A stretch of DNA of 64,000 nt from a virus. The stretch covers positions 301,300 through 365,299 of IMG/VR virus record IMGVR_UViG_3300038424_000251, one strand, 5' to 3'. Position 1 is the first letter of the stretch; every line of letters begins with the position of its first letter. The notes under the pieces are model-generated. The model was not told the DNA's origin, ran no database searches, and worked only from the letters and a program-made list of their open reading frames with translations. Made by a program: the position numbers and the translations under genes. Shown here piece after piece: positions 33,437-63,825 of this stretch.

Positions 33437-35050
33437 ATGGTAAATCAACCTACATTAAGAGATATAATAAAAGAAGAGACAAAGAAGTGCATGGAAGACC
33501 CTGCATATTTCATGCGAAAATATGTAAAAATACAGCATCCAACGAGAGGAACTATACTTTTTGATTTATATCCATTTCAAGAAGACACACTTAAGGAGTT
33601 TGATTTACACCGATATATTCTTATACTTAAATCAAGACAATTGGGTATCACCACTTTAATTGCAGCATATTCTTTATGGATGTCCATTTTTAATAGTGAT
33701 AAAAATATTTTAATTATTTCAATAAAACAGGAAGTTTCAAAGGAAATTATCACCAAAGTTCGTTTTGCTAATGAGCATTTGCCATCGTGGTTAAAAGTAA
33801 AGGAAACCACAAATAATTATATGTCTCTTAGATTTGCAAATGGTTCTCAGGTTGCAGCTACGTCATCAGCTAAGGATGCTGGTCGTTCAAAAGCATTGTC
33901 TCTTTTGATTATTGATGAAGCAGCTTTTATTGAAGAGAGTGAAACTATATGGGCATCATCTTATAATACCTTATCAACCGGTGGTAAAGCTATTGTTCTT
34001 TCAACCCCGAATGGTGTTGGTAATTGGTTTCATAAAATGTGGGTGGATGCCGAAAGGAAGAAAAACGATTTTAAAACATTGAGACTTTCGTGGAATCTTC
34101 ACCCAGAACGTGACCAAAAATGGAGAGATGAGCAAACCAAACAACTTGGTGCTAAACTTGCTAGTCAGGAATGTGATGGAGATTTTCTATCATCAGGAGC
34201 AAACGTTGTAGATTTAATAACACTTAAATGGTACGAAGAAAATCCAGAAATGGTAAGAGATAGGAAAGAAGCAAGAAGTGGAGAAGCTTTATGGATATTT
34301 GAAGAACCAATGCAAGGCAAAGATTATCTTGTATGTGCTGACGTAGCTCGTGGTGATGGGTCTGATTTTTCTGCAGCTCATGTGTTTGATATAGAAACCT
34401 TGGAACAAGTTGTAGAATTTCAAGACCAAATAGGTACAAGAGAATTTGGCAATATGTTAGTGTATCTAGCTACCGAATATAATGATGCACTTCTGATTGT
34501 TGAACGTGAAAATATTGGTTGGGCCGTTCTTCAACAAATTATTGACCGCCAATATAAAAATACATTTTATTCTAATACTAATGACCCGAAGATAGCAGAT
34601 GTCTATCATAATATGTCAAATAGATATAATCGTGATGAAGCTAAATTACTTCCGGGATTTTCTACAACAATTAAAACAAGACCATTATTAGTTTCAAAGA
34701 TAGAGGAATATTTTAGAGAAAAGTTGGTTATTATTCATTCTATCAGATTGATTAATGAATTAAAAACTTTTATTTGGGAAAATGGAAAGGCACAAGCAGC
34801 TCAAAATTATAATGATGATTTAGTTTTGGCATTGGGTATGGGATTGTGGGTAAGAGATACAGCTTTAAGACTTAGAAATGAAAAAATGGTTTTAACAAAA
34901 AATATGTTAGATAAAATACACATCAATAAAAATGAAGATAGAACTCCCATTTATACTGCTAAAGTCCAATCAACAGGTCGTGACCAATGGCAAATGAAAT
35001 TTGGTAAAAGACCGGGTGATGTTGAATCCTTAACTTGGTTATTACGATAA
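33437..35050 (+). CDS. 17: Terminase large subunit gp17
   Basis: A 537-residue packaging motor. The ATPase domain has a P-loop KSRQLGITT (65-73), Walker B LLIIDEAAF (D160, E161) and motif III VLSTPNGVG. The nuclease domain has D302 in VCADVARGDG, E356 in LIVERENIG and D460/D461 in YNDDLVLALG, the RuvC-type triad used for headful cutting. The usual P-loop Lys before TT is Ile here, with Lys at the start of the loop, as in some other large terminases. It is slightly shorter than T4 gp17 (610 aa). Confidence 0.92.
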   Translation: MVNQPTLRDIIKEETKKCMEDPAYFMRKYVKIQHPTRGTILFDLYPFQEDTLKEFDLHRYILILKSRQLGITTLIAAYSLWMSIFNSDKNILIISIKQEVSKEIITKVRFANEHLPSWLKVKETTNNYMSLRFANGSQVAATSSAKDAGRSKALSLLIIDEAAFIEESETIWASSYNTLSTGGKAIVLSTPNGVGNWFHKMWVDAERKKNDFKTLRLSWNLHPERDQKWRDEQTKQLGAKLASQECDGDFLSSGANVVDLITLKWYEENPEMVRDRKEARSGEALWIFEEPMQGKDYLVCADVARGDGSDFSAAHVFDIETLEQVVEFQDQIGTREFGNMLVYLATEYNDALLIVERENIGWAVLQQIIDRQYKNTFYSNTNDPKIADVYHNMSNRYNRDEAKLLPGFSTTIKTRPLLVSKIEEYFREKLVIIHSIRLINELKTFIWENGKAQAAQNYNDDLVLALGMGLWVRDTALRLRNEKMVLTKNMLDKIHINKNEDRTPIYTAKVQSTGRDQWQMKFGKRPGDVESLTWLLR

Positions 35051-35286: not shown

Positions 35287-37368
35287 ATGCCTGATTCACC
35301 TCTAAGACCAGAAGTAAGAGTAGATAATGACGAAGTTGACATAAAGCAAAAGTCTTTATTTGCGCGTTTAAAGAAGTTGTTTTCTTCAGGCGTTGTAGTT
35401 CGTAACGTTGGTGGTAAAAAACTTAAAGTAAAGGATACCAGCGATTTGATGTACGCAACTGATAGAAACAGTTTGCGTGACCGTTTTAATCGTGTTCGTT
35501 CTACAGCTTATAATGCTTACACTAGAGATTTTTCTCTAGCTTACCAAGCAGCTCGTATTGACCTTTTTAGAGATTATGATACGATGGATATGGACCCTAT
35601 TATCGCATCAGCTTTGGATATTTACGCAGATGAATCGTTAACTGTTAATGAATTGGGAAAAATTTTAGTTGTTCATGCTGAAGATGAAAATATAAAGGGT
35701 ATTCTTACTAATCTTTTTTATGATGTTCTAAATATTGAACATAATCTTTGGTCTTGGACAAGGAATATGGCTAAATATGGTGATTTTTACATGCGCTTAT
35801 ATATTTCGCCTGAATATGGTGTTTATCAGATTGAACCAATTTCTTCCTATAATGTTGAACGGCTTGAAAATACAGACCCACTTAATAAAAATTATGTAAA
35901 GTTTCAAATAAGACCAACCGATACGTCACAAGTTGAAACATTGGAATTTTTTGAGTGTGCTCATTTTAGATTACTTTCTGATTCAAACTTCCTTCCTTAT
36001 GGTAAAGCTATGATTGAAGGAGCACGCCGTGTTTGGAAGCAATTATCTTTAATGGAAGACGCTATGTTGATTAATCGTATTATGCGTGCTCCAGAAAGAC
36101 GTATTTTCAAGTTGGATGTAGGTAACATTCCTCCACAAGATATTGATTCTTTTATAGAAAAGCAGGTAACTAAGTTAAAGAGAGTTCCATATGTTGACCC
36201 TCAAACAGGAGATTATAATCTCAGATTTAATCTTCAAAATATGACGGAAGACTATATTTTGCCTGTTCGTGGTAGTGATAGTGGAACTTCTATTGAAACT
36301 TTGAGTGGTATAGAATGGACGGGTATTGATGATATTCAATATTTACGTAACAAATTAATGGCAGCATTAAAGATTCCTAAAGCTTTCTTAGGTTATGAAG
36401 AAGAACTTTCAGGTAAAGCTACATTAGCATCAGAAGATGTAAGATTTGCTAGAACTATTCAACGTATTCAAAGAGTTCTTATATCAGAACTTGAAAAAAT
36501 TGCTATTGTTCATTTGTATTCACAAGGATATCGTGATGAAAGTTTGGTAAATTTTAAACTTGAACTTACTAATCCATCAACGATTTTTGAGAAGGAAAAG
36601 ATTGAAGTTTGGGGAAATAAAACGGAATTGGCTAAAAATATGATGGAAGCTAAATTATTTTCTAAGCAATGGATTTACAAAAACGTCTTTAATTTGTCCA
36701 AAGATGATTCAGAAGAATTACTTGACCAGATTGTTGAGGATTCCAAACAGGTGTGGAGATTTAAATCCATTGAAGAAGAGGGTAATGACCCTGCTAAACC
36801 ATTTCAGAAAATTAATCCAAAAGCTGAAGGTCTTCCACCGGGTGGTGGAGGATTGCCTGAATTGGGCGGCGGCGGATTACCTGAACTAGGCGGAGCTGGT
36901 GTCGGTGGATTACCTGAACTGGGACCTCCAGTAGGAGGCGGTGGAGCTGGCGTATTACCACCGTTACAAGAAGCAAAGATTAAAGGAGATACTAATTATG
37001 CTAAATGGAATCAAATGGCTATCAATAATACTGGAAGTATAGAAGAGGAACATGGTGAACATGCTGAAGATTATGAAAGGCCGTCGCAAGAAGGGGAACA
37101 TGATGCTCGCAAACAACACCGTTTTGGAGAAGACCCCCTCGGTGATTTGGAAAATAAAAGAAAACCGAGAAAAAGTAGTAATTCTCTGACACCAAAATGG
37201 GCAAAGAATTCTCCATTCAGTCTTGAAACACTTCAAAGAAGTAGTTTGATTAAGAATCTTAACTCTTATTTGGATAAATCAAAAAGAGAAAAAAAGGAAT
37301 TAATTAAGGAAGCAACGACAACAGGAAGCAAGTCAATGCTTGATGAAGATAACATAATTGATGAATAA
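35287..37368 (+). CDS. 20: Portal protein gp20 with Gly/Pro-rich C-terminal extension
   Basis: A 693-residue protein. Residues 1-490 match T4-type portal proteins: DTMDMDPIIASALDIYADES, WSWTRNMAKYGDFYMRLYIS, SLMEDAMLINRIMRAPERR, VPYVDPQTGDYNLRFNLQN and PKAFLGYEEELSGKATLASE. T4 gp20 is 524 residues; here an extension follows with four Gly-rich LPEL repeats (about residues 515-555) and a charged tail (EEHGEHAEDYE) ending MLDEDNIIDE. The portal is the DNA-packaging and neck channel and nucleates the prohead. The extension is absent from T4 and may lie inside the capsid. The start has AAAAGGA upstream. Confidence 0.9.
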   Translation: MPDSPLRPEVRVDNDEVDIKQKSLFARLKKLFSSGVVVRNVGGKKLKVKDTSDLMYATDRNSLRDRFNRVRSTAYNAYTRDFSLAYQAARIDLFRDYDTMDMDPIIASALDIYADESLTVNELGKILVVHAEDENIKGILTNLFYDVLNIEHNLWSWTRNMAKYGDFYMRLYISPEYGVYQIEPISSYNVERLENTDPLNKNYVKFQIRPTDTSQVETLEFFECAHFRLLSDSNFLPYGKAMIEGARRVWKQLSLMEDAMLINRIMRAPERRIFKLDVGNIPPQDIDSFIEKQVTKLKRVPYVDPQTGDYNLRFNLQNMTEDYILPVRGSDSGTSIETLSGIEWTGIDDIQYLRNKLMAALKIPKAFLGYEEELSGKATLASEDVRFARTIQRIQRVLISELEKIAIVHLYSQGYRDESLVNFKLELTNPSTIFEKEKIEVWGNKTELAKNMMEAKLFSKQWIYKNVFNLSKDDSEELLDQIVEDSKQVWRFKSIEEEGNDPAKPFQKINPKAEGLPPGGGGLPELGGGGLPELGGAGVGGLPELGPPVGGGGAGVLPPLQEAKIKGDTNYAKWNQMAINNTGSIEEEHGEHAEDYERPSQEGEHDARKQHRFGEDPLGDLENKRKPRKSSNSLTPKWAKNSPFSLETLQRSSLIKNLNSYLDKSKREKKELIKEATTTGSKSMLDEDNIIDE

Positions 37369-37429: not shown

Positions 37430-38302
37430 ATGCCTAAGAAAATGCGCCACTCAAAGTTTAGAAATACAGGTATTTTGTTTGAATTGTTGACACGACAAGT
37501 GACAGCAGATATTATTGCTGGTAAAGATGAGTCGGAAGCTAAAGATTTACTTTTTAAATACTTTAAAGAAAACACCGAATTGGGCCGAGAATGGCGTCTT
37601 TATAATTTTCTTTTGTCTGAAAAAATCAAGGATGAGCACCATGCGGATAGATTTTTGTCGGTTATTGTAGAACAACGAAAAAAACTTAGTAACGCTAAAT
37701 TAGCGAGGGAAAAATACGAATTAATTAAGGAAATTAAGGAACTTTATCCAATTAACGATTTTTTAAAAGCAAATATTAAAAATTATAGGACTTTAGCTTC
37801 CATATTCAAACTATTTGAAGATGATTCTTCCAAAGATTTGAAATTTGATGCAAAAGAAGTTTATCAAGCAAAAACGTGTATTATTGAAAACATTGTTGAT
37901 AGACCGAAGAAATCTGGTGAAGAGGATATTCTTAAGTTTTATGCACAACAAAATGAAGATGTTCGTCTTTTATCTTATCGTATATTGGTCGAAGGTATGA
38001 ATAAGAAATATAAAGATTTAGATGAAAATCAAAAGAATGTTCTTCGTGAATATATTAACAATATTTCCAATACTAATTCGCTTGGTGAATATATTGTAAA
38101 AGAAGTGGATAATGTAAAGAAACAATTGTGTGAATTATCATCAAAAATTAAGGATAATGATGTAATAAGAATAAAAATCAACGAAGTTGTTCGTCAACTG
38201 AATAAAGTAAAACCATTACCAAATAAAATAGTAAAGGATAATCAAGTTATGGTTGTTTTACTTTCTTATGAACTTTTGAAAGAAATTAAAAATCAACTTT
38301 AA
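37430..38302 (+). CDS. Conserved head-cluster protein (290 aa)
   Basis: An almost entirely helical, charged protein whose N-terminus RHSKFRNTGILFELLTRQVT is a conserved signature in large T4-like phages, where it lies between portal and protease genes. A scaffold or prohead-core role fits its helical make-up and position but is inference. It has its own late promoter and precedes the motif-bearing gene at 38308 by 5 nt. Confidence 0.55.
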   Translation: MPKKMRHSKFRNTGILFELLTRQVTADIIAGKDESEAKDLLFKYFKENTELGREWRLYNFLLSEKIKDEHHADRFLSVIVEQRKKLSNAKLAREKYELIKEIKELYPINDFLKANIKNYRTLASIFKLFEDDSSKDLKFDAKEVYQAKTCIIENIVDRPKKSGEEDILKFYAQQNEDVRLLSYRILVEGMNKKYKDLDENQKNVLREYINNISNTNSLGEYIVKEVDNVKKQLCELSSKIKDNDVIRIKINEVVRQLNKVKPLPNKIVKDNQVMVVLLSYELLKEIKNQL

Positions 38303-38307
38303 AAAAA

Positions 38308-40359
38308 GTGAAAAAATCTCAATTCCAATCATTGATTAAAAATGTGGTTGAAGAACAATTAGGACGATGGGTTTCTCCTAGTGAGTTAAATAAACAAACA
38401 CCACAACAGAAGGGAGTTGTGCAATATTTGGAAAAACTTAATTATCGTGTTACATCCACAATGCCTGCAGATACAACAGGTAAAACTGTAATAGTTATTA
38501 TGGATAAATCGGGTGGAAAATATGGCCATGAAGAAGCATTAGTAAATCCTAATGGTTCTGTGACTGGAAAGGCTGCATCTGATATTCCTATGAGCCTTAC
38601 GGGTGGAGGTTTAGATTTTTCTATTGTTGAAAAAAAATTACATCTTAAATTTCGGATTAAAAATATGGTAGAAAAAGCTATATTGAATGAGATACTTGGT
38701 GTTGGTCCAGATATTCATCAAGCTACAATAACTCAGAAACGAGCTATTAACACATTGAAAAAAATAGGATTTATTCTTAGAAATACTTATCCAACATCAG
38801 ATGGCGTAGGTATAATTCTCATAAGACATAAAGGGAAGCTTGGTAGTCCAGTAACAAGAGTTGCAAATATAAAACCAGATGGAAGTATTAATGAGCCACA
38901 TATAAATCTTAGTAAATATCTTAGTTTTGTTGGTGGTGGCGCTGGAGGTTCTGAACGTGGAGTTTCTTTACATGAATTGAGTAAACAAACATCATCACAA
39001 ACAAGAGCAGTTAATCATTTTGAAAGGAGAGGGTATCATATAAAATCTACGTCGCCTATAAGTGACAGAACTATAAATGTTATTATGACTAAATCGGGTG
39101 GTAGATTTGCCAGTGATGAAGTAATAATTGGACCAGATGGTTCTGTAAATGGAAAAGTATCTGCTACTCCTATTATTCATGAAAAAATGACTACGAGAGC
39201 CGACTTAGCAGCTGATGTGGGTCTTGGTGGCACAATGAAAGCTGTGAACGTTGCAGAAGAAAATGAGGAAAGAACATGCGACTGTGGTAGTGGATTACCT
39301 AGTAAATGGGAACGTGATGGTCAGGGTATTCCTTTGGTAAGAGCGTGTGATAAATGTAGAAAGCAGAAACTATCAAAATATCGTCCAGAAATTCTTAGAC
39401 CATATACTCAAGCAGATGTGGATGAACCGATTGAACCAGAAGATTATGAGGAACAAATGGGTGCAGTTGGTGGATATGCTACTCCATATGTGTTTAAAAA
39501 GAAAATAAGAGAAAAAATCGGTCCTGATGGAAAGTATCAAGATGATATGGAAAGTGGTGTTAGGTCAAAAAGAATTTCTGGTCTTTCTGAAATTGGTGTA
39601 GGTTTGACTACGGCTGCCGCAGTAGGGGGTATTGCTTTTATTTATATGTTATTAAACCGTATAATTAACCGTGGTTCTAACATTTACGCTGGTGGTGGTG
39701 AGTGGGAGAAAATAGAGATAACACAAGATAACATAAATATGATGCTTGATTTGATAAAAGCACATAATCCAAGACTAAAAGATGCAGATATTGAATTTGT
39801 TAAAAATCAAATTATGAATGAAATAAAGGGTGGTACAGTAAAAACCGTGGGAGATTTAAAAAAATATTTAAAAGCAAGAGAATTGGAATCGAGAAAAAAA
39901 TTAGAAGAAATACATAGGTCAGGACTCCATAGGTTAGGAATGGATTATTCTATAATTAAAAAAGTAAGAAATGCAGCTTCTAGATTTTTTAAGGTCCCTG
40001 TAGGAAATATTGAAAATATTAAAGTATTATATAAAATTACTCCTACTGATATTGTGTTTGAAATTATTTTGGGGCCACCAAGATGGGAAAGAAAATTTAT
40101 AAGATTTCATGGTATAAATAATCCTTTTGAAGTATGGGATGAAGAGCAAGAGAAATTTGTACCAACTCTTAAAACAGTTAGAAATTTTCCTCCAGAGGAA
40201 GAAGAAAATATTCAGGAAATGACAGCAACGGGTGCTATAGCTGGATATGCTACACCATTTGCATTTTCTAAAAAGAAAAGTGGTAGTCAAAGAGCATTAG
40301 ATGTAACTAAAAAGTTAGGATTTAAAGTAGTAGAAAGTATTTTAGAGAAGGTGAAGTAA
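38308..40359 (+). CDS. Modular head-internal candidate with tandem repeat domains
   Basis: A 683-residue protein beginning with GTG; the start is supported by the match of MKKSQFQSLIKNVVEEQL to MKKSQLKLIISEI in the gene at 42424. A related motif recurs at 102-120 (HLKFRIKNMVEKAILNEI, with an L-N-E site). A domain of about 65 residues is present three times (about 22-88, 139-199, 220-284; compare YLEKLNYRVTS, TLKKIGFILRN, HFERRGYHIKS) with a stub at 667-683. A four-Cys ribbon (C324, C326, C347, C350), two GYATP motifs (389, 646) and a hydrophobic segment (about 438-452) complete it. The function is unknown. Confidence 0.55.
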   Translation: MKKSQFQSLIKNVVEEQLGRWVSPSELNKQTPQQKGVVQYLEKLNYRVTSTMPADTTGKTVIVIMDKSGGKYGHEEALVNPNGSVTGKAASDIPMSLTGGGLDFSIVEKKLHLKFRIKNMVEKAILNEILGVGPDIHQATITQKRAINTLKKIGFILRNTYPTSDGVGIILIRHKGKLGSPVTRVANIKPDGSINEPHINLSKYLSFVGGGAGGSERGVSLHELSKQTSSQTRAVNHFERRGYHIKSTSPISDRTINVIMTKSGGRFASDEVIIGPDGSVNGKVSATPIIHEKMTTRADLAADVGLGGTMKAVNVAEENEERTCDCGSGLPSKWERDGQGIPLVRACDKCRKQKLSKYRPEILRPYTQADVDEPIEPEDYEEQMGAVGGYATPYVFKKKIREKIGPDGKYQDDMESGVRSKRISGLSEIGVGLTTAAAVGGIAFIYMLLNRIINRGSNIYAGGGEWEKIEITQDNINMMLDLIKAHNPRLKDADIEFVKNQIMNEIKGGTVKTVGDLKKYLKARELESRKKLEEIHRSGLHRLGMDYSIIKKVRNAASRFFKVPVGNIENIKVLYKITPTDIVFEIILGPPRWERKFIRFHGINNPFEVWDEEQEKFVPTLKTVRNFPPEEEENIQEMTATGAIAGYATPFAFSKKKSGSQRALDVTKKLGFKVVESILEKVK

Positions 40360-40360
40360 T

Positions 40361-41491
40361 ATGAGTAAGAAAATTAAATTAAGAAATTTGTTGAATTTAA
40401 CTGAACAGGCTCCACAGCCACCAATGGCAAGCCCGGCTACTCCTGTGCCTGCTCCTGTTCTTCCCGCAGGTATGAGCGCAGGCGGTGCTGCGGCAGAAGA
40501 GGTACCACCAACCCCTCCACCTGCAGAAACATCACCTGAACCGGAAGACCCATCGGAATATGATTTCACTCGTGATTTTAGGGCATTTGAGGATAAAAAG
40601 AACAAGGCTGAATCTGATGCTAAGAAGGTTCTTTTGGATAAAATGAACAAAAGACTTTTGAACAAAACTGTTGTTGCTAATGCTTCACGCGGTTATGGAC
40701 AACCAAAAACCGATTACACTATAGAAAATATTAAGAAAATTAGTGTAGAATTTTGGTATAAGGATTATGTGGTGATAGCAACCGACCAAAATGATAAGAA
40801 ATACTTTTTAACTCCGGGTATAAATATTAAAATTGAAAGTGAAGGTTCTCAACCTGCTCCGGGTGCAGAAGAAAAACCAATAGCAGGTCCAGAAGTTCCA
40901 CCACAAGAACAACCAGCGGAACAACCACCAAAAGCTGGTGATGAAGAAGAACCAAATGTAGCATCTCCATCAGCACCCTCACCAGAAGAACAACCACCAC
41001 AGGCTGTTCCAATGGTTCCTACTCAAGAGCCAGCACCAATGGCTCCACAACAAACGGTGCCAAAACAAGCACCAGCTCCAGCAGAGCCATCGCTGGCAGA
41101 ACCAGAACCGGAGATTCCACATCGTAAAAAGAAAAAGAAACTTCCACCTGTAGCTGAATGGATTCAAAAAGATTTAAATATATTTCTTGTAGAATTTATG
41201 TCTGATAGTATAAAAGATGAAAATGGAAAAGTTAATTTTCTTCCTTATATAAAGAAAACATCAAAAATATTAGCTGAAAATGTAAATACTACCAAAATCA
41301 AGTACCAGTTATTGATTCCTGAAAATCATATGATAAATAATATAGATAACAGAGATATAAAATTGGCTGCAATTGATGCTATGAGACGACAAACGTATTA
41401 TGGCCAATATTCGAAAGGTTCGGTTGATATAGTTAAAAATGGTAGATATTATCTCTTGGAATATGTTAAAGAGATAGGATGGAACGTTTAA
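40361..41491 (+). CDS. Pro/Ala-rich protein, head-internal candidate
   Basis: A 376-residue protein. The N-terminus KKIKLRNLLNLTEQ resembles a capsid-targeting peptide with an L-T-E cleavage site. Residues 18-70 and 165-245 are Pro/Ala/Glu/Gln-rich linkers. Two folded parts remain: about 70-160 (with FWYKDYVVIATDQNDKKYFL) and the C-terminal 110 residues (VAEWIQKDLNIFLVEFMSDS, ending LLEYVKEIGWNV). It lies 1 nt upstream of the prohead protease gene. No family is recognised. Confidence 0.5.
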   Translation: MSKKIKLRNLLNLTEQAPQPPMASPATPVPAPVLPAGMSAGGAAAEEVPPTPPPAETSPEPEDPSEYDFTRDFRAFEDKKNKAESDAKKVLLDKMNKRLLNKTVVANASRGYGQPKTDYTIENIKKISVEFWYKDYVVIATDQNDKKYFLTPGINIKIESEGSQPAPGAEEKPIAGPEVPPQEQPAEQPPKAGDEEEPNVASPSAPSPEEQPPQAVPMVPTQEPAPMAPQQTVPKQAPAPAEPSLAEPEPEIPHRKKKKKLPPVAEWIQKDLNIFLVEFMSDSIKDENGKVNFLPYIKKTSKILAENVNTTKIKYQLLIPENHMINNIDNRDIKLAAIDAMRRQTYYGQYSKGSVDIVKNGRYYLLEYVKEIGWNV

Positions 41492-41492
41492 T

Positions 41493-42122
41493 ATGAATAC
41501 TAAACAATTATTAGTTGATTGTATAACCTTTGAATTTATCAAAGATAATCTCTTTGAAGAAGCTATTCGTACTGATGGAAGACGATTGGTTGTCAAGGGT
41601 ATTTTACAACGAGCAAATATAAAAAATCAAAACGGTAGGCTATATAAGAAAGATGTACTTTTTCGTGAATCAAAAAAATATGAGGAAAACTTTGTAAAAG
41701 AAAGAAGAGCATTGGGAGAACTTGACCATCCAGAAAGCTCAGTTGTAAACTTACAAAATGTGTCTCATAATGTTGTAGAATTACATTGGGAAGGTGATGA
41801 CCTTATGGGAACTGTTGAAGTTTTACCTACTCCAAATGGAAATATTTTAAAGGAATTATTTAAAGCCAATATTCGACTTGGAATTTCCAGTCGTGGATTG
41901 GGAACAGTCAATAAAAGTATAAATGAAGATGCAGATGTGGTTCAAGATGATTTTGAACTTATAGCGTTTGATTTTGTATCAAATCCTAGTACAAGGGGCG
42001 CCTTCATGTTTCCATCGGGTACTCTTCAGGAAGGTGTTAAAACCACTATTCAAAATCCAATTACCCAAAAATGGGAAAGGGTTGAGAATATTGTAAGAGA
42101 TATTTTAACTGAAATTGAATAA
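41493..42122 (+). CDS. 21: Prohead core protease gp21
   Basis: A 209-residue serine protease matching T4 gp21 (212 aa). The catalytic His is H79 in LGELDHPESS and the nucleophile is within GISSRG (S132/S133). The downstream segment FELIAFDFVSNPSTRGAFM is also conserved. gp21 cuts scaffold, capsid and internal proteins after Glu in L/I-x-E sites during head maturation. Neighbouring products carry such sites near their N-termini. The portal, protease, scaffold, capsid order of T4 is kept, but with about 9 kb inserted between protease and scaffold. Confidence 0.88.
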   Translation: MNTKQLLVDCITFEFIKDNLFEEAIRTDGRRLVVKGILQRANIKNQNGRLYKKDVLFRESKKYEENFVKERRALGELDHPESSVVNLQNVSHNVVELHWEGDDLMGTVEVLPTPNGNILKELFKANIRLGISSRGLGTVNKSINEDADVVQDDFELIAFDFVSNPSTRGAFMFPSGTLQEGVKTTIQNPITQKWERVENIVRDILTEIE

Positions 42123-42423: not shown

Positions 42424-43689
42424 ATGAAGAAATCACAATTAAAATTGATAATTTCAGAAATTATAAAGCAGGCAAAATTACTTGAAAATGGGTTATCTCG
42501 TAATTGTACTGCTAATGATATTACATGGAAAGGAAAAAAAGGATATCAATGTTTAAATTGTGGTGCATGGGCTGAACATTCTTGGGATATTAAACATAAA
42601 AAACAAAATCCATTAGAAAAACCAAAATTTTTTGAAAATGATTTGAATGAAGCAATATCTCCAAAAAGTGTTGCTACAATTGAAAAATGGCGAAAAGAAG
42701 TCGGAGATAGACAAACTGGTGTAAAATTAATAGATACCGTTTTAGAAAGAAGACTTGGATTATTATCAGCAGATTTAGCTGATACTGCTATATTTGCAAA
42801 TGGATTGGATGCAATAGAAGAAGTGTTAAAGGAGAATAATTATGAAGCTGCTATTCGTCAAGCTATAGAAACTGCTAGGGAAATGATAGAGGATGAAGGT
42901 GGGGCAGGAATATGGGAAGAATACAGAAAATTACAAGAAGCTCAAGGATGGGCAGGTGCAGATGATAGATGGATTTCACACCCTATAACAAAAAAGGAAC
43001 CAAAATATTATAAAGAATATGGTGTAACATATTGTCATATTGACCTAAAAAAAGAAAAGTGTCCTCCGGGTATGAAAATTTTCCCCTACACAGAAGAACA
43101 TGTTCCTACAAAGAAAAAATTTCCAAGACAAATATGTTGTTATAATGAAAATGATTTTCGCAAATTATTAGGGCATTGGAATACAGCAGTGTGGAAATAC
43201 GAACCAACTAGTTCAATGTTACAAGAGAAAGTAAATAGGTCAGAATTAAAATTTATTATTAAAGAAATTGTCAGAGAAATTTATTCTGAACAATTTCGAC
43301 AAGATGAAATTAGTAATAAATGGAAAGCATTAGCAAGCGCCGCTTTGGTTGGATATGCTGGATTGCATACTCCTTTTGGAACAAAAACCGCTCAACATTG
43401 GAGTCAAACACCTGCTGGACAACAAATTGTAATGACGGCTAGACAAATGTGGAATCAAGTACCACCAGCTCAACGAACAGCAGAAAAGGCTAAACAAATA
43501 TGGGGTCAAATAATAAAACCGGGTCATATTGATATGCCCAATCCAAACGAACCATTACCATCAGAAAAAGGTATGAGTCCTTGGGATTTAGCTGGTAAAT
43601 ATACTGCAAGAAATGTGGACCTTACTCAAAAATTACAACCGTTTGTTAAACGTTATCTACCTCCTGTTAGTTCAAAGAATCCTTCTTAA
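42424..43689 (+). CDS. Modular head-internal candidate with two targeting-like motifs
   Basis: A 421-residue protein. The N-terminal motif MKKSQLKLIISEIIKQAKLL is followed by E21, and a second copy lies at 272-290 (NRSELKFIIKEIVREIYSE). Between them are a zinc-ribbon-like segment (C43-x-x-C46 with H52 and H58), a helical domain and a Cys-containing domain (YCHIDLKKEKC, QICCYNEND). After the second motif comes AALVGYAGLHTPFG, reminiscent of the GYATP motif of the protein at 38308. If the prohead protease cuts after the motifs, it would release two separate domains. No enzymatic function is evident. Confidence 0.5.
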   Translation: MKKSQLKLIISEIIKQAKLLENGLSRNCTANDITWKGKKGYQCLNCGAWAEHSWDIKHKKQNPLEKPKFFENDLNEAISPKSVATIEKWRKEVGDRQTGVKLIDTVLERRLGLLSADLADTAIFANGLDAIEEVLKENNYEAAIRQAIETAREMIEDEGGAGIWEEYRKLQEAQGWAGADDRWISHPITKKEPKYYKEYGVTYCHIDLKKEKCPPGMKIFPYTEEHVPTKKKFPRQICCYNENDFRKLLGHWNTAVWKYEPTSSMLQEKVNRSELKFIIKEIVREIYSEQFRQDEISNKWKALASAALVGYAGLHTPFGTKTAQHWSQTPAGQQIVMTARQMWNQVPPAQRTAEKAKQIWGQIIKPGHIDMPNPNEPLPSEKGMSPWDLAGKYTARNVDLTQKLQPFVKRYLPPVSSKNPS

Positions 43690-52766: not shown

Positions 52767-54614
52767 ATGGAAAATATTAAATCATTGTTAACAAACACTC
52801 TCAATCCTCAAGCTCGTTTGATGCAGGAAACCCGTGGTCTTGTGACCAAGTGGGATAAAACCGGTCTTCTTGATGGTATTAAGAGTGATATTGAGAAGTC
52901 CAATATGTCGGTCTTGCTCGAAAATCAGGCTAAACAACTGATTGAAGAAGCAACTGCTACTGGTACTTCCGCAAACTCTGAACAGTGGGCTGGCGTAGCT
53001 CTCCCGTTGGTCAGACGTGTATTTGCTGAATTTGCTGCGAAGGAATTCGTATCCGTTCAGCCTATGAACCTCCCATCTGGTCTTGTGTTCTACTTGGATT
53101 TCAAGTATGGCTCACCTCACGGTGGTAATCCTGCCGATACATCAGGTTCATATTATCAATCATTGTTCGGTGGTACTGGTGCTAAACTAGGTTCTACTGA
53201 TACATTCGGCGGTGGTCTATACGGCGCAGGCCGATATGGTTACACCATTAATCAAAAAGCTGCAACTGCAGTAACATTTAGTGCAGCTACATCAACATTG
53301 GAAGATATTGACTGGTTGGCTAATTATTATACTCAATATGCCTCATCTGGTTCAGTACAAGGAATTTTGAATAGTATTTCAGCATCGTTTAATAACAATC
53401 AGCTTATTACTTTTAAAACTTCAAATTTTTATAGTACTACGACTAGTCAAGGTAATCCGTTTGACCCATTAGCTGTTCGTTCATTCATGCCATATAGCAT
53501 TGTTACTGGATCTACAGCAGGGCTAACTGCTTCATTTCAATCAGGTAGTGCTGCCGGCTCCGGTCCTATGTATTTCCCACCATTTACAAAATTTGTAGTG
53601 GGTACTGGTATCGATGCTGGTGGTGCTCAGGTTGGTGAAATCCAGTTTGTCTTATCAGCTTCGGCTGGTGCTACTGGTTCCTTCACTGGTAATATTTATT
53701 ACACAGTTCAACCAAGCCCACAAGACCGTGGTGACTTCGAAGATAATCCAAACAATGCTAATGCTACTGGTACTGATACGGGATTTGTTTATGGAACAGG
53801 TAAGTCAACTACTGATACTGGTCTTAACAAGGATATCGGTATTCCAGAAGTAAACTTGCAACTTAACTCCGAACCAATCGTAGCTAAGACACGTAAGTTG
53901 AAAGCTGTCTGGACTCCTGAACTTGCTCAAGACTTGAATGCTTATCATAGCATTGACGCAGAAGCAGAATTGACTGCTCTGTTGTCTGAATATGTTTCAA
54001 TGGAAATTGACCTTGAAATTCTTGATATGTTGATTAACGCAGTATTACCTATCAATATTGAACGTTGGAGTGCAAGGCTTAATACGGAAATAGTTCCTAC
54101 TGGAACTGGTACTTACCAATTCGTTCAAACAACAACGGCAGGTACTGGTGGTTACTACACCAAGGCAACATGGTACCAAACTCTTGGTAACAAGATTCAA
54201 AAGGTATCCAACAGGATTCACCAATTGACGCTTCGTGGTGGTGCTAACTTCATGGTTATCTCCCCAACAGTGGCAACTGTTCTTGAATCTATTCCGGGAT
54301 TCGTAGTGAATACCGATGGCGACCAAGCAAAGTTTGCTATGGGCGTTTCAAGGGTTGGTTCATTTGCTTCAAGGTTCCAAGTTTACAAGAACCCATATAT
54401 GACTGATAATATCATTCTAATGGGCTTCCGTGGTAATAACTTCTTGGAAACTGGTGCAGTATATGCTCCATACATTCCATTGGTTCAGACACCGTTAGTG
54501 TATGACCCTGTGAACTTCACGCCAAGACGTGGTGTAATGACCCGTTACGCGAAGAAGATTGTTCGTCCTGAATTCTATGGCAAGATTTACATTGCCGATT
54601 TGGACACGGTATAA
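52767..54614 (+). CDS. 23: Major capsid protein gp23
   Basis: A 615-residue protein, compared with 521 in T4. The N-terminal 61 residues look like the T4 propeptide and end LLENQAKQLIEE before ATATG, so gp21 probably cuts after E61 (E65 in T4). Conserved parts include LPLVRRVFAEFAAKEFVSVQ, LKAVWTPELAQDLNAYHSID, NFMVISPTVATVLESIPGF and FYGKIYIADLD. The region at about 100-340 is a long Gly/Ser/Thr-rich insertion domain. The codons are noticeably richer in C and G than those of neighbours, as expected of a highly expressed gene. A strong terminator follows. Confidence 0.92.
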   Translation: MENIKSLLTNTLNPQARLMQETRGLVTKWDKTGLLDGIKSDIEKSNMSVLLENQAKQLIEEATATGTSANSEQWAGVALPLVRRVFAEFAAKEFVSVQPMNLPSGLVFYLDFKYGSPHGGNPADTSGSYYQSLFGGTGAKLGSTDTFGGGLYGAGRYGYTINQKAATAVTFSAATSTLEDIDWLANYYTQYASSGSVQGILNSISASFNNNQLITFKTSNFYSTTTSQGNPFDPLAVRSFMPYSIVTGSTAGLTASFQSGSAAGSGPMYFPPFTKFVVGTGIDAGGAQVGEIQFVLSASAGATGSFTGNIYYTVQPSPQDRGDFEDNPNNANATGTDTGFVYGTGKSTTDTGLNKDIGIPEVNLQLNSEPIVAKTRKLKAVWTPELAQDLNAYHSIDAEAELTALLSEYVSMEIDLEILDMLINAVLPINIERWSARLNTEIVPTGTGTYQFVQTTTAGTGGYYTKATWYQTLGNKIQKVSNRIHQLTLRGGANFMVISPTVATVLESIPGFVVNTDGDQAKFAMGVSRVGSFASRFQVYKNPYMTDNIILMGFRGNNFLETGAVYAPYIPLVQTPLVYDPVNFTPRRGVMTRYAKKIVRPEFYGKIYIADLDTV

Positions 54615-56313: not shown

Positions 56314-56703
56314 ATGAAGCAAAGTCAACTTAAACAACTTATTAAAGAGATTGTATATTGTATTTTTAAAGAACAGTTTGGTGAACCAACTCCACAAAAG
56401 TTAATACCTGATGATGAAGAAGAACTATGGAAAATAGTACAGAGTTTACCTATTGATTATTCAATTCAATTTTCAATTTTTCATCCAATATCAAAAGGGT
56501 TGTTGATTATACTTCATAGTAGTAAGGGAAATGTATTTGCAGCTACCAGTCTTGGTGGGTTAAAACATGCTGGTCCACCTGATGGAAAATGGCATGTACC
56601 GGGTGAGAAAATTTTAAGAATTTTAGTAAAGGATGTATATGATTATGGTGAAAATAATGATGTATATTATTCCATAGTTAAAACTACTCCAACTAACCTT
56701 TAA
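56314..56703 (+). CDS. Small head-internal candidate (129 aa)
   Basis: The N-terminus MKQSQLKQLIKEIVYCIFKE is the clearest copy of the targeting-like motif. After a short linker comes a domain of about 95 residues (EEELWKIVQSLPIDYSIQFS, GLLIILHSSKGNVFAATSLG, DGKWHVPGEKILRILVKDVY) with no known relatives. Its own late promoter suggests it is made with the virion proteins. If cleaved after the motif, the C-terminal domain would be a free protein inside the head. Confidence 0.5.
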   Translation: MKQSQLKQLIKEIVYCIFKEQFGEPTPQKLIPDDEEELWKIVQSLPIDYSIQFSIFHPISKGLLIILHSSKGNVFAATSLGGLKHAGPPDGKWHVPGEKILRILVKDVYDYGENNDVYYSIVKTTPTNL

Positions 56704-56724: not shown

Positions 56725-58053
56725 ATGACCGATTTTATTTTTAAGGAATCATATCATGATAATATGTCAGATGCTGAAAAAGAAGCATTGGCTCTCTCTT
56801 ATTGGTCAATAGGACAGTCAGATGAAGATGGTGAAGATATTTCGTGGAAAAATTGGTGTTGGATTTATAAAAATGACATATTGCGCTACAAAAAAGGACA
56901 AACGCATGGTATCAACTTTGGTATTGATAGAGAAAATTATTTTAGAGGTTGGTATGATGCTAAAAAGAATACAATATCTGTGGTTTTTCCTGCACATGAA
57001 CTTAGAAAATTTGGTAATAGAAGGCCATCAGAAGATGACATACCACAATTACTTTATCAAAAACTAATTAATACATTTGGCGCTGGGCGTCCAAAATTCA
57101 TTGTATTTGAGAATGCTACACTGATAAAAAGAAGTGAATTAAAATTGCTTCTAAAAGAAATTGTTCAACAAATTCTTCTAAACGAAAGAGAAGAGAATGA
57201 ATATTATTGGTTAGAACCAAATTTACAGTTTCAAAGAGTTCCGTGGGAAGGACATGCAAATTGGGCAAGAAATTATTTAGAGAATATGGGAAAAAAATTA
57301 TCTTATGGTGATTATGATGATGTGGGTGTTTATAATAGAATGTATGAATTGGGATTTGTTAGAGTTGTCAAAGTTGGTTATTTTGATGGTGATATTCTGA
57401 CATATAATTATAAAAAAGGATTTCCGCCTTCTCCACAAAAAATAAAAGCAATGAAGAATTTTGCAATAGAAAAGAATTGTGACACAATTAGAGATGATAC
57501 GAGTGGAAGAATTGAAAATTTGTTACAGGAAGGAATATTTCTTAAAGAAACAATGACTTATAAAGAACTTTTAGCTTTAACAACTCCTGAAAGAAAAGAA
57601 CGTGCAGCAAATGTAAGAGTTCGCTCTATTCCTGTTAGTATTGAAGAGGGATTAGAACAATGGAATTTCAGATATAAATCCAGTCCACAAACCACTGTAA
57701 CTGATGAACCATTTGAAGGTCATATTACATTCTTAAAAGGTAGAGTAGAACGAAGTGATGATGCTATGAATTTAGAGTGTAAAGTTGATTGTAGTTGTCC
57801 TGATTTCATGTATAGATTTGCTTATAATGATACTCAAAAAGGTGCAAGTGATATTGGACCTGACAGTTTAAGCGGTTGTATTAATAGAAAACCAAAACCA
57901 GCTTATGATTATGGTGAAGGCTTATGTAAACACTTGGCAGCATTGCGTAGATATTTACAAACAAAAATATTAGCGACTAGAAGAAGTAATTTATTTGAAG
58001 CAATCGGTGATGTGGCAAAACAAGGACCATTTAATATAACCTATTATGATTAA
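56725..58053 (+). CDS. SWIM zinc-finger protein with internal targeting-like motif
   Basis: A 442-residue protein. Residues 1-130 are an alpha/beta domain (ISWKNWCWIYKNDILRYKKG, HGINFGIDRENYFRGWYD). The motif IKRSELKLLLKEIVQQILLN lies at 134-153 with L-N-E following. Residues 160-280 form another domain (VPWEGHANWARNYLENMGKK). The last 130 hold a SWIM-type finger: C-x-C in KVDCSCPDFMYRF and C-x-H in GLCKHLAALRRYL. SWIM proteins of this kind are common in T4-like cyanophages. SWIM domains bind DNA or protein; the function here is unknown. It overlaps the next gene by 8 nt. Confidence 0.6.
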   Translation: MTDFIFKESYHDNMSDAEKEALALSYWSIGQSDEDGEDISWKNWCWIYKNDILRYKKGQTHGINFGIDRENYFRGWYDAKKNTISVVFPAHELRKFGNRRPSEDDIPQLLYQKLINTFGAGRPKFIVFENATLIKRSELKLLLKEIVQQILLNEREENEYYWLEPNLQFQRVPWEGHANWARNYLENMGKKLSYGDYDDVGVYNRMYELGFVRVVKVGYFDGDILTYNYKKGFPPSPQKIKAMKNFAIEKNCDTIRDDTSGRIENLLQEGIFLKETMTYKELLALTTPERKERAANVRVRSIPVSIEEGLEQWNFRYKSSPQTTVTDEPFEGHITFLKGRVERSDDAMNLECKVDCSCPDFMYRFAYNDTQKGASDIGPDSLSGCINRKPKPAYDYGEGLCKHLAALRRYLQTKILATRRSNLFEAIGDVAKQGPFNITYYD

Positions 58054-59334: not shown

Positions 59335-62300
59335 ATGCAATTTCCTAGTCGTGATTTTACCAATCAGTATATTTCTAAATCTTACCAAGATGTAGTCCAA
59401 CGATATGCTGATACAGGTTCTACCACTTATTTTTTAGATGGTCTTGGATATGTTATTGCGGGGATTCCGACATCTTCAATTGGTAATATCATTGTTACTC
59501 AAGATCAAACTGCTTCTTATTCTTTCTTTGCAATAACAGCTTCATACGCTGCTACTTCCTCAGTGACATATGTTACTTCTTCAATAACTTCTTCAGTAAC
59601 GTCAGCTATATCTGCATCATGGGCATCATCTTCGATTAGTGCGAGTTATTTTAGTGGTTCAATCGTATCAGCTTCTTTTATTAGTACTCCAAATATAGAT
59701 TCAAGTAACAGTTATCTTTATAGCAGTGGTAAATTTGTAGCAACCATAGAGGGTTCTCATACCGCAGTTTATAGCTTAAATGGTATTAACTGGAACGTTG
59801 TTACAATGCCCGGTGATTTTGGTTGGGATGGTTTAATTTATGGAAATGGTAAATATGTAGCCGTTGCATATTATAATACCAATGGTAGTGCATCAGCTTA
59901 TAGTTATGACGGTATTCATTGGTCATCATCTATCATGCCCGGTGGCTCTTCACTTTATTGGGCTAGTGTAGCTTATGGAAATGGTAAATATGTAGCTGTT
60001 GCAGATAATTTTGTTAATACTGCATCTTATAGTTCAGATGGAATAAATTGGTCAGCCTCTGTAATGCCTGATTCTCTTGAATGGTATTCTGTGTGTTATG
60101 GAAATGATAAATTTGTGGCAGTTACGTATGATGGGTCCAATACATCGAGTTATAGTTATGACGGAATTCATTGGACGGCTTCTGTAATGCCGGGAGTTCC
60201 ACCCATTTATTGGACTAATGTATGTTATGGAAATGGAAAATTTGTAGTAGTTCCAAACACTTCTAATACAGGAGCTTATAGTTATGACGGAATTCATTGG
60301 ACGGCTTCTGTAATGCCCGGAATATATTGTTGGAATAGTGTAATTTATGGGAATGGCAAATTTGTGACAGTTGAAGATAGTGGTGATATTGCAGCATATA
60401 GTTATGATGGAATTACTTGGTACTCTACTCCAATGCCTTTGTCTGGTTCTGGACTTTTCTGGATTGGTGTAGCTTATGGAAATGGAAAATTTGTAGCAAT
60501 TGCAGATACACCAGATACAGCTTATAGTTATGATGGTGTCAATTGGACTGCCTCCGTGATGCCTGTTAATTTGTCTGGTTGGTTTAATGTAGTTTATGGA
60601 AATAATGATGGTAATAACAATAGTAACAATATTTCTATTGATTGGCAAAATCAAATATTATCAGATGGTCTTTGGAAGGGTACAATTTTCAATGCTATAT
60701 CTTCCTCTTATGCAAATATTTCATCATTATCATTAGTTTCTGATGTAGCTTTGATAGCTGATACTGCTTCTTTTGCTGGTTTTACTACTGAACCTGTTAT
60801 ACATCTCTATGCATATCCACAGCCAATGTATTGTGTAGATATGAATGGAACTAGCAGTGGTTTCAAAATTTTTTCCGGTAGTGATTGTTCACCAATGATT
60901 CAAGCCGCTATTAATGACCCTATTAATTTTGCTAATATGGATTTGTTGAGTGGTAGTGTTCCAGTTGGGAGTAAATTAGTATTTGCTCCCGGTACATATA
61001 ATTGTAATAGCCCCATTTCTTTCTCTGTTCCAAATATTACTTTGCCAAATAGCACTAGAGGACCGGGTTATCCTGTTAATTACGTCATTGAAGGTGCTGG
61101 AAAATTTAATACTCAAATAATTTATACAGGTACAAATGCAATTAGTTCTAGTAATCCTAATACTGCTTCTGCTTTTATCACTATTGGAACTACGGGTCAA
61201 AATGATAATGCGTGGGTAAATTTTAGTGCATATGATATCGGATTCTGGTGTTGGGAACAACAATGTGCAGTTGTTTATGCTATTGGTTTTAATCAATGTG
61301 AATTTAATAATTGTGCATTTGGTAATTCTTATTCTTTACAAAATGGTCGTGTAGCTGGTTCTTCTATACAATTGGGTGTACCTGCTAATATTCCACCTTC
61401 TTTAATTTGTTTGTGGGCGGATGCAGGTGGAGATAATGCACTTATTGTGGAAAATCATTGTATTTTTTCAGGAGGTGCAATAGGATTATATTTGAATTGT
61501 GACCATGCTAGAATTGTTAATAGTGATTTTGGTGGATTTGGACAGTATAATACTGGTAGTGGTGGTGATATAGTTGGAACTTCATATTCACCATCAAGCA
61601 GTGTATTCAGTTTGGGTTCAGCAATATTGGATGCAGTTCGTCAAGAAATAGTTATTGAGGGATGCCATATGGTTAGTTGCGCAGGAGGTATTTATGCAAT
61701 TGCAAATCCTCAACGACCATATTATCAAGTTCCCTACCATCAATATTCATATAATTATAATGAATTTTGTAGTGGTTTTGATATTGGTATTCAAAATGAT
61801 TGGTTCTTATCAAGTGTAAAAAAAGCTCAGTTTAATGCTGAGCAAAATATGTTTTATAATCAAAATTATGGTTCCATATCTTCGGGGTCTGGATATTGGA
61901 CTGGTAGTAGTATTTTTCCGAGTTATCTTTCTTTACAATTTACTCAAGTAACCAATGCTGGAAATGGTCCTTCTGCATCTTTAAATCTTTGGGGTCTTAC
62001 TAATATACAAAATGGTGTTATAATAGGTTCTTTGACTGGAACTTCAAGTTGGTCAAACAATTCAACTTCAAGTAGTTATGCTATAACTGCTTCTTGGGCA
62101 CCAACACCAACAAATGTAACAAGTTGTAGTTATATATCTTCTTCAACTATAGATTCTGGTAATGGTTTACTTTGTTTAGCCACTAGTCAATCGATGTTTG
62201 TATCAGTTACAAATAGTACTTTTACATCTTCATATAGTTATGACGGTATAAATTGGACTGCTTCTATAATGCCCGCTCCGCTTATTTGGTCATATGCTGC

Positions 62301-63825
62301 ATATGGAAACAAAAAATTTGTAGCTGTATCAAATAGCAGCTCTACATCTTCATATAGTTATGACGGTATAAATTGGACTGCTTCTGCTATGCCTGCTTCT
62401 CTTCAATGGGATGGAATTACTTATGGAAATGGAACATTCGTAGCAGTTGCGTATAATTCTAATGTAGGAGCTTATAGTTATGATGGAATTAACTGGATAT
62501 CTTCTTCAATGCCTGCTACTCTTAATTGGCAGAGTGTGGCTTACGGAAATGGAGTATTTGTAACAGTCGCTGTAGGTTCTAATACGGGGTCTTATAGTTC
62601 TGATGGTATAAATTGGACTGCTTCTGCTATGCCTGCTTCTCTTAATTGGCAAAATATAACGTATGGAAATGGGAAATTTGTTATAGTTGCATACAATTCT
62701 ATTTCAGGAGCTTACAGTTATGACGGTATCAATTGGACATCTTCTACAATGCCTCTTTCACGTCTCTGGGAAAGTGTTACTTATGGTAATGGAACTTATG
62801 TAGCTGTTGCAAGAAATTCTCTAACTGCCTCTTATAGTTCCGATGGTATTAATTGGACATCTTCCAGAATGCCTGCTTCACTGTTTTGGAGTAGTGTTAC
62901 CTATGGAAATGGAAAATTTGTAGCTGTCACAATCAATACTGCAACCTCATCATATAGCTCAGATGGTATCAATTGGACATCTTCTAAATTGCCGGCTTCA
63001 CTTCAATGGATAAATGTAACGAATGGATTTGGTAAAACTTTCTATGTTCCATCAATAGATTGGCAAAATAATATGTTAGCAGATGGAATTTGGACTGGTA
63101 ATATCACCAATGCAAATCTAGCTACTTCATCAATTTCAAGTTTATTCGCTTCCCAATCTTTAAGTGCATCGTGGGCATCTTCATCTATTTCGTCAAGTTA
63201 TGCAATAACTGCTTCTTGGGCTCCGATGCCCGATGTAAGTAATTCGTCATCTTGGGCTTCTTCTTCTATTAGTTCAAGTTATGCTATAACTGCTTCTTAT
63301 GCTCCATTTACAGATAATCCAAATGCAACATCATCAAGTTGGGCAAGTTCATCTATTAGTTCATCTTGGTCAAATATATCAATTTCCTCAAGTTACGCTC
63401 TAAGTGCTTCGTGGGCTCCGGGTGGTGGTTCATCTGTAAGTGCTTCTTGGGCATCAAGTTCATTGGGAGATGTTCCTGTTGGTTGTGTAGTGGCTTGGTT
63501 GCAAAATTTGAGTGGAACACCTGCTTTACCAAGTAATTTTGTTCAATGTAATGGTCAAACAATTACCGACCCACAAAGTCCTTATAGTGGATCAACAATA
63601 TCAAACTTAAATGGTTCTGGTGCTCAAACCCAAAGATTTTTAAGAGGTTCAACAACTTCGGGTGGAACGGGTGGAAGTGATACCAATACACACTATCATA
63701 ATATAACATTTAATCAGAATGCCGCAGGGTCAAGTCCTTGCAGTGCAAACGGTTCAACAGATAATACAACCATAAGCATACTTCCATCTTATTATGAAGT
63801 TGTCTGGATAATTCGTATAAAATAA
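59335..63825 (+). CDS. Giant tail fibre: two propellers, beta-helix and collar domain
   Basis: A 1496-residue fibre. Order: N-terminal attachment domain (1-60); SASYA shaft; first propeller (about 122-427, seven units like YGNGKFVAVTYDGSNTSSYS then YDGIHWTASVMP); linker IDWQNQILSDGLWKG; right-handed beta-helix of the pectate-lyase type (about 482-860, with VNYVIEGAGKFNTQIIYTG and FNQCEFNNCAFGNS); shaft; second seven-unit propeller (about 940-1240); a second IDWQN linker; SASYA shaft (1265-1375); and a C-terminal tail-collar-like domain (VPVGCVVAWLQNLSGTPALP, ending LPSYYEVVWIIRIK). It probably binds and may cut a host surface polysaccharide; catalytic residues were not identified. Confidence 0.75.
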   Translation: MQFPSRDFTNQYISKSYQDVVQRYADTGSTTYFLDGLGYVIAGIPTSSIGNIIVTQDQTASYSFFAITASYAATSSVTYVTSSITSSVTSAISASWASSSISASYFSGSIVSASFISTPNIDSSNSYLYSSGKFVATIEGSHTAVYSLNGINWNVVTMPGDFGWDGLIYGNGKYVAVAYYNTNGSASAYSYDGIHWSSSIMPGGSSLYWASVAYGNGKYVAVADNFVNTASYSSDGINWSASVMPDSLEWYSVCYGNDKFVAVTYDGSNTSSYSYDGIHWTASVMPGVPPIYWTNVCYGNGKFVVVPNTSNTGAYSYDGIHWTASVMPGIYCWNSVIYGNGKFVTVEDSGDIAAYSYDGITWYSTPMPLSGSGLFWIGVAYGNGKFVAIADTPDTAYSYDGVNWTASVMPVNLSGWFNVVYGNNDGNNNSNNISIDWQNQILSDGLWKGTIFNAISSSYANISSLSLVSDVALIADTASFAGFTTEPVIHLYAYPQPMYCVDMNGTSSGFKIFSGSDCSPMIQAAINDPINFANMDLLSGSVPVGSKLVFAPGTYNCNSPISFSVPNITLPNSTRGPGYPVNYVIEGAGKFNTQIIYTGTNAISSSNPNTASAFITIGTTGQNDNAWVNFSAYDIGFWCWEQQCAVVYAIGFNQCEFNNCAFGNSYSLQNGRVAGSSIQLGVPANIPPSLICLWADAGGDNALIVENHCIFSGGAIGLYLNCDHARIVNSDFGGFGQYNTGSGGDIVGTSYSPSSSVFSLGSAILDAVRQEIVIEGCHMVSCAGGIYAIANPQRPYYQVPYHQYSYNYNEFCSGFDIGIQNDWFLSSVKKAQFNAEQNMFYNQNYGSISSGSGYWTGSSIFPSYLSLQFTQVTNAGNGPSASLNLWGLTNIQNGVIIGSLTGTSSWSNNSTSSSYAITASWAPTPTNVTSCSYISSSTIDSGNGLLCLATSQSMFVSVTNSTFTSSYSYDGINWTASIMPAPLIWSYAAYGNKKFVAVSNSSSTSSYSYDGINWTASAMPASLQWDGITYGNGTFVAVAYNSNVGAYSYDGINWISSSMPATLNWQSVAYGNGVFVTVAVGSNTGSYSSDGINWTASAMPASLNWQNITYGNGKFVIVAYNSISGAYSYDGINWTSSTMPLSRLWESVTYGNGTYVAVARNSLTASYSSDGINWTSSRMPASLFWSSVTYGNGKFVAVTINTATSSYSSDGINWTSSKLPASLQWINVTNGFGKTFYVPSIDWQNNMLADGIWTGNITNANLATSSISSLFASQSLSASWASSSISSSYAITASWAPMPDVSNSSSWASSSISSSYAITASYAPFTDNPNATSSSWASSSISSSWSNISISSSYALSASWAPGGGSSVSASWASSSLGDVPVGCVVAWLQNLSGTPALPSNFVQCNGQTITDPQSPYSGSTISNLNGSGAQTQRFLRGSTTSGGTGGSDTNTHYHNITFNQNAAGSSPCSANGSTDNTTISILPSYYEVVWIIRIK
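59701..60660 (+). repeat. Tandem propeller-blade repeats, block 1
   Basis: Seven in-frame units of about 120-135 bp encode the pattern Y-G-N-G-K-F/Y-V-A-V ... Y-S-Y-D-G-I-x-W ... M-P, followed by a closing strand. Nucleotide identity between units is high, with several 20-base stretches shared exactly. Confidence 0.8.
62155..63060 (+). repeat. Tandem propeller-blade repeats, block 2
   Basis: Seven units of about 120 bp with the same pattern as block 1, more regular in length (40 residues). A closing strand and the IDWQN linker follow. Neighbouring units share exact nucleotide stretches. Confidence 0.8.

Follow-up and report, generated by a model that had tools for sequence, protein, structure and literature searches.

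The head gene cluster studied here raises the question of what a protein of 683 aa, assembled from several apparently unrelated parts, does between the portal and prohead protease genes of a large phage. The stretch of DNA analysed (the window; 64,000 bases, i.e., bases 301300-365299 of the 365,299-base virus record of a 365-kb phage) holds a T4-type head cluster in the order large terminase (starting at 33437), portal (starting at 35287; Portal_T4 E 2e-67), a conserved 290-aa protein (P290; starting at 37430), the modular protein under study (Q683; 38308..40359, + strand, one open frame of 683 codons with a GTG start), a 376-aa protein (P376; starting at 40361) and, two genes downstream of Q683, a gp21-like S77 prohead protease (41493..42122, + strand; PF03420 E 9e-27), which is the presumed cutter; the major capsid protein gene lies at 52767. 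The T4 order is portal-67-68-21-22-23 and Q683, separated from the portal by P290, is therefore located where T4 encodes its prohead core proteins. Searches of Q683 against Pfam and PHROGs were negative, and PADLOC returned nothing significant. An earlier sequence-only reading of this DNA did not recognise the combination of parts in Q683 either and, indeed, no known single family in Pfam or PHROGs covers the region.

That reading had described Q683 as a mosaic with a triplicated domain, and the triplication is real. A unit of ca. 70 aa occurs three times, as R1 (residues 30-101; 38395..38610, + strand), R2 (residues 139-211; 38722..38940, + strand) and R3 (residues 227-295; 38986..39192, + strand), all supported by pairwise repeat comparison and profile and, for R2, also by a model from outside phages. 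The pairwise scores are 146 (z 26) for R1-R3, 82 (z 12) for R2-R3 and 58 (z 7) for R1-R2, and in each case 0 of 1000 shuffles reached the score. A model made exclusively from the R copies of other phages matches R2 (E 1e-6) and R1 (E 0.004) and did not find R3, which is counted as a repeat because it is similar to R1. Across the genome the R profile matches in Q683 alone. For R2 a helix-strand-strand-strand-helix fold is predicted (model pLDDT 77, pTM 0.63); since R2 is the sole repeat that was folded, the likeness of the three folds would follow from sequence only. The best VIA-align results for the model are Z 5.2 to 1whz (56 aligned, 3.2 A) and Z 5.1 to 6g26 (HicA), Foldseek returned nothing with an E below 0.001, and no structural match is convincing, so that a HicA/dsRBD-like layout of the model is only a lead. 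By sequence, the search of the R domain against the PDB yielded low-complexity matches to designed trefoils and nothing else. The C-terminal stub, which had been taken for a further repeat copy, reaches z values of just 1.9 to 4.1 and turned out to be the GY module that is common to the relatives (see below).

The two GYATP motifs, the four-Cys ribbon and the hydrophobic helix that had also been noticed are all present. The motifs occupy residues 389-393 and 646-650. The first GY module (residues 383-400; 39454..39507, + strand; profile A1 E 4e-5) is preceded by YEE|Q (the bar marking a predicted cut), which is without canonical P3, and has homologous copies in three related loci (L015, L016, and L026); the second, terminal GY module (residues 638-683; 40219..40356, + strand; profile A1 E 6e-24) is conserved across the corresponding proteins of relatives. 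Over the 365-kb record the GY profile has two matches in all, both within Q683, and the GYATP motifs form a signature that recurs in head proteins. As a query for the collection the GY alignment lacked any sufficiently conserved stretch. The CxC...CxxC ribbon module (residues 322-370; 39271..39417, + strand), the zinc ribbon of Q683, shares 50% identity with a free-standing protein of ca. 60 aa in Rhizobium phages and changes place among the relatives. Module M5 (residues 428-535; 39589..39912, + strand; supported by a model and by homologues) consists of the hydrophobic helix, at residues ca. 431-454, and a helical bundle, and is present twice in both L015 and L016. It is followed by M6, an alpha plus five-strand domain (residues 542-633; 39931..40206, + strand; supported by homology and a model) with 63-65% identity in L015 and L016. 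The joint M5-M6 model (pLDDT 78) shows a long hydrophobic helix, the bundle, and then a helix with five strands; its structure comparison gave a best Z of 6.0 and no convincing match.

Three features had gone unnoticed: an N-terminal leader, an internal leader at residues ca. 109-131, and a cleavage-like site before the second GYATP motif. Leader 1 is capsid-targeting-like (residues 1-21, MKKSQFQSLIKNVVEE; 38308..38370, + strand), ends in VVE/VEE, and is matched by profile A7 (E 7e-9) and by a leader model from which window sequences were kept out (E 9e-4). Internal leader 2 (residues 109-131, KKLHLKFRIKNMVEKAILNE; 38632..38700, + strand) matches the N-termini of the homologues in L015 and L016 (741 and 747 aa), with 0 of 2000 shuffles reaching this similarity, and Q683 therefore reads as a leader-R1 unit fused before leader-R2-R3-ribbon-GY-M5-M6-GY. 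The 421-aa protein starting at 42424 occupies what we call the second slot, the leader-tagged gene position after the protease. Its GYAGLHTPFG stretch had been proposed as a relative of GYATP, a proposal that fails because the GY profile matches Q683 alone in the 365-kb record; in L023 the stretch homologous to it is GTIGFNTPVVKG. The true link between the two proteins is the common N-terminal leader.

In the 421-aa protein this leader lies at 42424..42486 (+ strand; leader model E 2e-6), and an internal one follows at 43237..43281 (+ strand; leader model E 0.005, profile E 1e-3). Further leaders in the window are found in a 129-aa protein (56314..56376, + strand; leader model E 6e-6, profile E 1e-9) and internally in a 442-aa protein (56725-58053; leader at 57127..57186, + strand; leader model E 6e-4, profile E 2e-6). 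Near its C-terminus the latter protein also matches a SWIM zinc finger weakly (E 0.008). In the whole record the profile search found 11 leader matches, six of them outside the window. One belongs to a 316-aa protein (L129:1501-2451; G000:C1:284162 onward), in which the leader is followed by a YdeN/RBBP9-type serine hydrolase (residues 25-210; PDB 1uxo E 9e-24 over these residues, PF06821 E 1e-22); this hydrolase with a head leader is a candidate virion enzyme. A second short domain lies behind VNE in the same protein. A 448-aa protein (L145:850-2196, - strand, near G000:C1:50491) is built of repeated units of a leader-like helix plus a Cys/His zinc motif and is a candidate for another tandem-unit protein. 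Tagged proteins of this kind are what one would expect of a portable address tag. Only this clade has the exact leader type, which was matched in 3 of 10 related records; in other relatives the proteins at the gene position of Q683 carry amphipathic leaders of different wording, and internal leaders also occur in L052 and L053. Elsewhere in the window, Pfam unexpectedly matched a 1496-aa protein (59335-63825) to EPTP (E 2e-9) and, narrowly above the cut-off, to GFP (E 1e-4).

Scans with the protease and P290 yielded more than 100 loci, and the gene position after P290, the slot occupied by Q683, was recovered in 80 further loci through P290. The protein encoded there has in most loci an N-terminal basic amphipathic helix of ca. 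20 residues, and the consensus across dozens of metagenomic relatives consists of this leader, optional inserted modules, and then [LIV]-x-E|[MA]-[ST]-x-[ST]-G...GYxTPxAF. In most phages the leader is directly followed by the acidic junction and the GY module, as in Flavobacterium phage immuto, where the complete protein of 73 aa, MKKSQIVKAVQEVLEE|MSTTGAVGGYLTKNAFSKK, is leader plus GY module. The junction reads MKDLKPIIKKIVEELLAE|MTATGNVSGYSTPFAFSK in L030 and ...ALTE|MTTTGNVAGYQTPGAF in L036. The clade of the window retains both ends, with up to ca. 600 residues of modules in between, and the slot protein thus ranges from 73 aa (immuto) to 747 aa. Its variability is at odds with that of its neighbours: the phage of Q683 and L015 are 96% identical in the portal, 91% in P290, 90% in the protease and 75% in P376, whereas their slot proteins share merely 38-45% identity, in patches. 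A cargo domain in the first slot of L051 is 50-57% identical to a second-slot domain of L017, L020, and L023 (E down to 1e-36). In L030-L038 the leader and GY module are fused to a P376-like domain, indicating that gene fission and fusion are common at the slot, and in some other relatives they are joined to a conserved helical tail. The term mosaic was, consequently, right and can be put more strongly than it was, as the relatives reshuffle the modules.

Some other features of these loci deserve mention. Terminase, portal or protease genes in L026, L029, L037, L039, L040, L042, and L043 contain intein-sized in-frame inserts; the copies of these genes in the window are uninterrupted. A homing-endonuclease-like ORF (WNRNCPDCG...) lies immediately 3' of the modular gene in L017 (358-1035) and L023 (8163-8867). 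A second recurring N-terminal motif, M..LFENvnGNqFKL, heads otherwise different small proteins (L015:10632, L018:11575, L020:11850, L022:7070, and L136:1967) and is perhaps another sorting tag.

The putative prohead-protease site of Q683 (residues 635-640, IQE|MTA, P1 = E637; 40210..40227, + strand; strict motif) stands in the context IQE|MTATG, directly before the terminal GYATP module. The capsid protein gp23 of T4 is cleaved at LTE|AEIGG. With this site aligns IEE|ATATG (E61; 52947..52952, + strand), the predicted site of the major capsid protein in the window, and in the capsid proteins of the group (n = 10) the aligned stretch mostly reads [LI]xE|A[TS]xTG. Another site predicted by motif, IKE|A (E675; 37309..37314, + strand), is located near the C-terminus of the portal and is, among the portals compared, present in that of the window alone. 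The T4 protease gp21 cleaves after L/I-x-E (PMC9026906). Among the GY-type junctions, 64 of 78 distinct ones fit xxEx[ST]x[STA][GAS], 57 of these 64 with L/I/V/M at P3, and the residue after the predicted cut is mostly M or A. In the window the strict motif occurs six times (portal, Q683, capsid protein, and three others) against 0.58 expected from shuffles; a slightly looser form gave 35 matches in 41 distinct slot proteins against 1.1 expected, compared with 1 match in 34 terminases (TerL control) against 1.7 expected, all of these being counts over related sequences rather than independent events. Counts of plain [LIVM]xE were rejected as proof of many cuts. The neighbouring P290 is equally enriched in it, and we therefore restrict the confident claim to the junction before the GY module, which by analogy with the capsid protein and by its motif is a predicted prohead-protease site.

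We consider it probable that Q683, encoded by a jumbo phage of the T4 type, is a leader-targeted, protease-cut internal prohead protein that has grown into a modular, probably multi-cargo polyprotein. Working in the manner of the capsid targeting sequence of T4, the basic amphipathic leader would take Q683 into the prohead core, where the S77 protease would cut it during maturation; the site in front of the terminal GYATP module has the best support, and the ends of the leaders are likely further cut points. The mature GY peptide, and probably other modules too, would remain in the head. Targeting and cleavage are suggested by the leader and junction motifs; retention of the modules in the virion and delivery into the host are what we infer beyond this, with the T4 precedent pointing to host entry. 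The presumed ancestral form, which most relatives still have, would have been a leader with a GY module and an optional helical tail. In the clade of the window the R domains, zinc ribbon, hydrophobic-helix module and M6 would have been inserted and a second leader-R unit added in front, by which one gene would load several domains into the head. The earlier suggestion of a packed effector or a core protein was on a good track: gene position, the leader ending near [LIV]xE and the junction are each compatible with an internal prohead protein. More tentatively, and with some doubt on our part, the leader-tagged proteins could be cassette-like polyproteins, each gene holding repeated internal leaders and several unrelated cargoes that are separated by the head protease and move among at least two slots, with the hydrolase delivered along with the DNA.

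As the main alternative, Q683 could be a prohead core or scaffold protein, like T4 gp67 and gp68 or the SPN3US propeptides, with modules that serve assembly and are then degraded or expelled, so that at most the basic GY peptide stays. It is likely cut and lies in the same portal-gp21 protease interval as gp67 and gp68 (T4 20-67-68-21), the conserved part is the GY module, and the fusions of leader and GY module to the P376 domain or the helical tail fit as well; in SPN3US, long propeptides (111-254 residues) undergo several cuts and are for the most part removed (PMC10052503). Conservation would, however, be expected of core proteins, while the modules of Q683 differ among close relatives in which the head genes stay 75-96% identical. 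The inserted modules resemble folded, swappable domains, in contrast to the short core chains of T4, one cargo domain is found in two different slots, and a serine hydrolase bears the same leader. With gp67 and gp68, hhalign gave a probability of 0.1% for 46 short forms. All in all, we regard a purely structural role as unlikely.

Since leader-tagged genes also adjoin those for neck, tail tube and baseplate, a different role of the leader is conceivable. It could be a general sorting or interaction helix, for a membrane, an assembly site or a chaperone, and LxE|xTxTG an uncut, conserved binding motif; no sequence similarity was detected between the leader of Q683 and the T4 capsid targeting sequence. 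This seems quite improbable, given that the motif coincides with the capsid-protein position aligned to the gp23 cleavage site and that most junctions satisfy the L/I-x-E rule of gp21. The unusual length of Q683 and its internal leader might even point to an assembly artefact or a decayed gene fusion, which we find hardly credible: the ORF is intact in six IMG/VR contigs, the L005 version differing by one residue, and the 741- and 747-aa homologues in other phages have a related architecture.

The internal prohead protein that we favour has its closest functional parallel in T4. Its internal proteins IPI, IPII, and IPIII were reportedly described with their capsid targeting sequence by Mullaney and Black in 1996. 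They have since been reviewed (PMC9026906, PMC3012670); a conserved targeting sequence precedes diverse proteins, and IPI*, in this resembling the predicted R domain, is a small beta-sheet domain with flanking helices (PMC3012670). Like them, Q683 has a putative targeting propeptide, short, N-terminal and ending in [LI]xE, and a conserved leader in front of hypervariable cargo; the S77 protease family and T4-type head genes are further common features. A propeptide of this type (10-20 residues, ending in [LI]xE) is recognised by sequence pattern alone in 57 of 64 slot junctions. The leader of Q683 has, however, roughly double the length and an unrelated sequence, the chain holds several domains and internal leaders, and the gene sits within the portal-protease cluster. 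The leader model, the R model and hhalign gave no match to IPI, IPII or IPIII; Q683 most likely works like a T4 internal protein, by analogy, though it has no detectable homologue among them. The SPN3US ejection proteins gp53 and gp54 are likewise sizeable internal proteins of the head, cut at several short motifs that end in E (PMC10052503), but their motif is A-x-E instead of the L/I-x-E|xTxTG of the Q683 group, and the modules of Q683 are shuffled between relatives. Polyvalent proteins also combine several domains and are presumed to enter the phage head with packaging and to be delivered (PMC5512222). They often have their own embedded peptidase domains, whereas the cut in Q683 would be made in trans, by the head protease; no polyvalent conflict or peptidase domains were found in Q683 with Pfam, PHROGs and PADLOC. 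In the literature we found neither a report of a prohead protease cutting a phage polyprotein nor virion proteomics for an immuto-type phage, the phage of Q683 or its relatives.

The scheme of Q683 is, therefore, probably a modular, multi-leader and probably multi-cargo version of the T4 principle of targeting and cutting, and by such leader tags and protease cuts the virus group may load variable extra proteins together with its DNA. If so, the leader and junction motif would provide a sequence handle on the head-carried proteins of a large, mostly uncultivated T4-type group, which could be listed from genomes alone, since the hydrolase was found in that way. It would also offer a natural precedent for one tag packing several proteins, which T4 engineering does by hand, and a way to test hypervariable internal proteins beyond the T-even phages as first-entry weapons against host defence.
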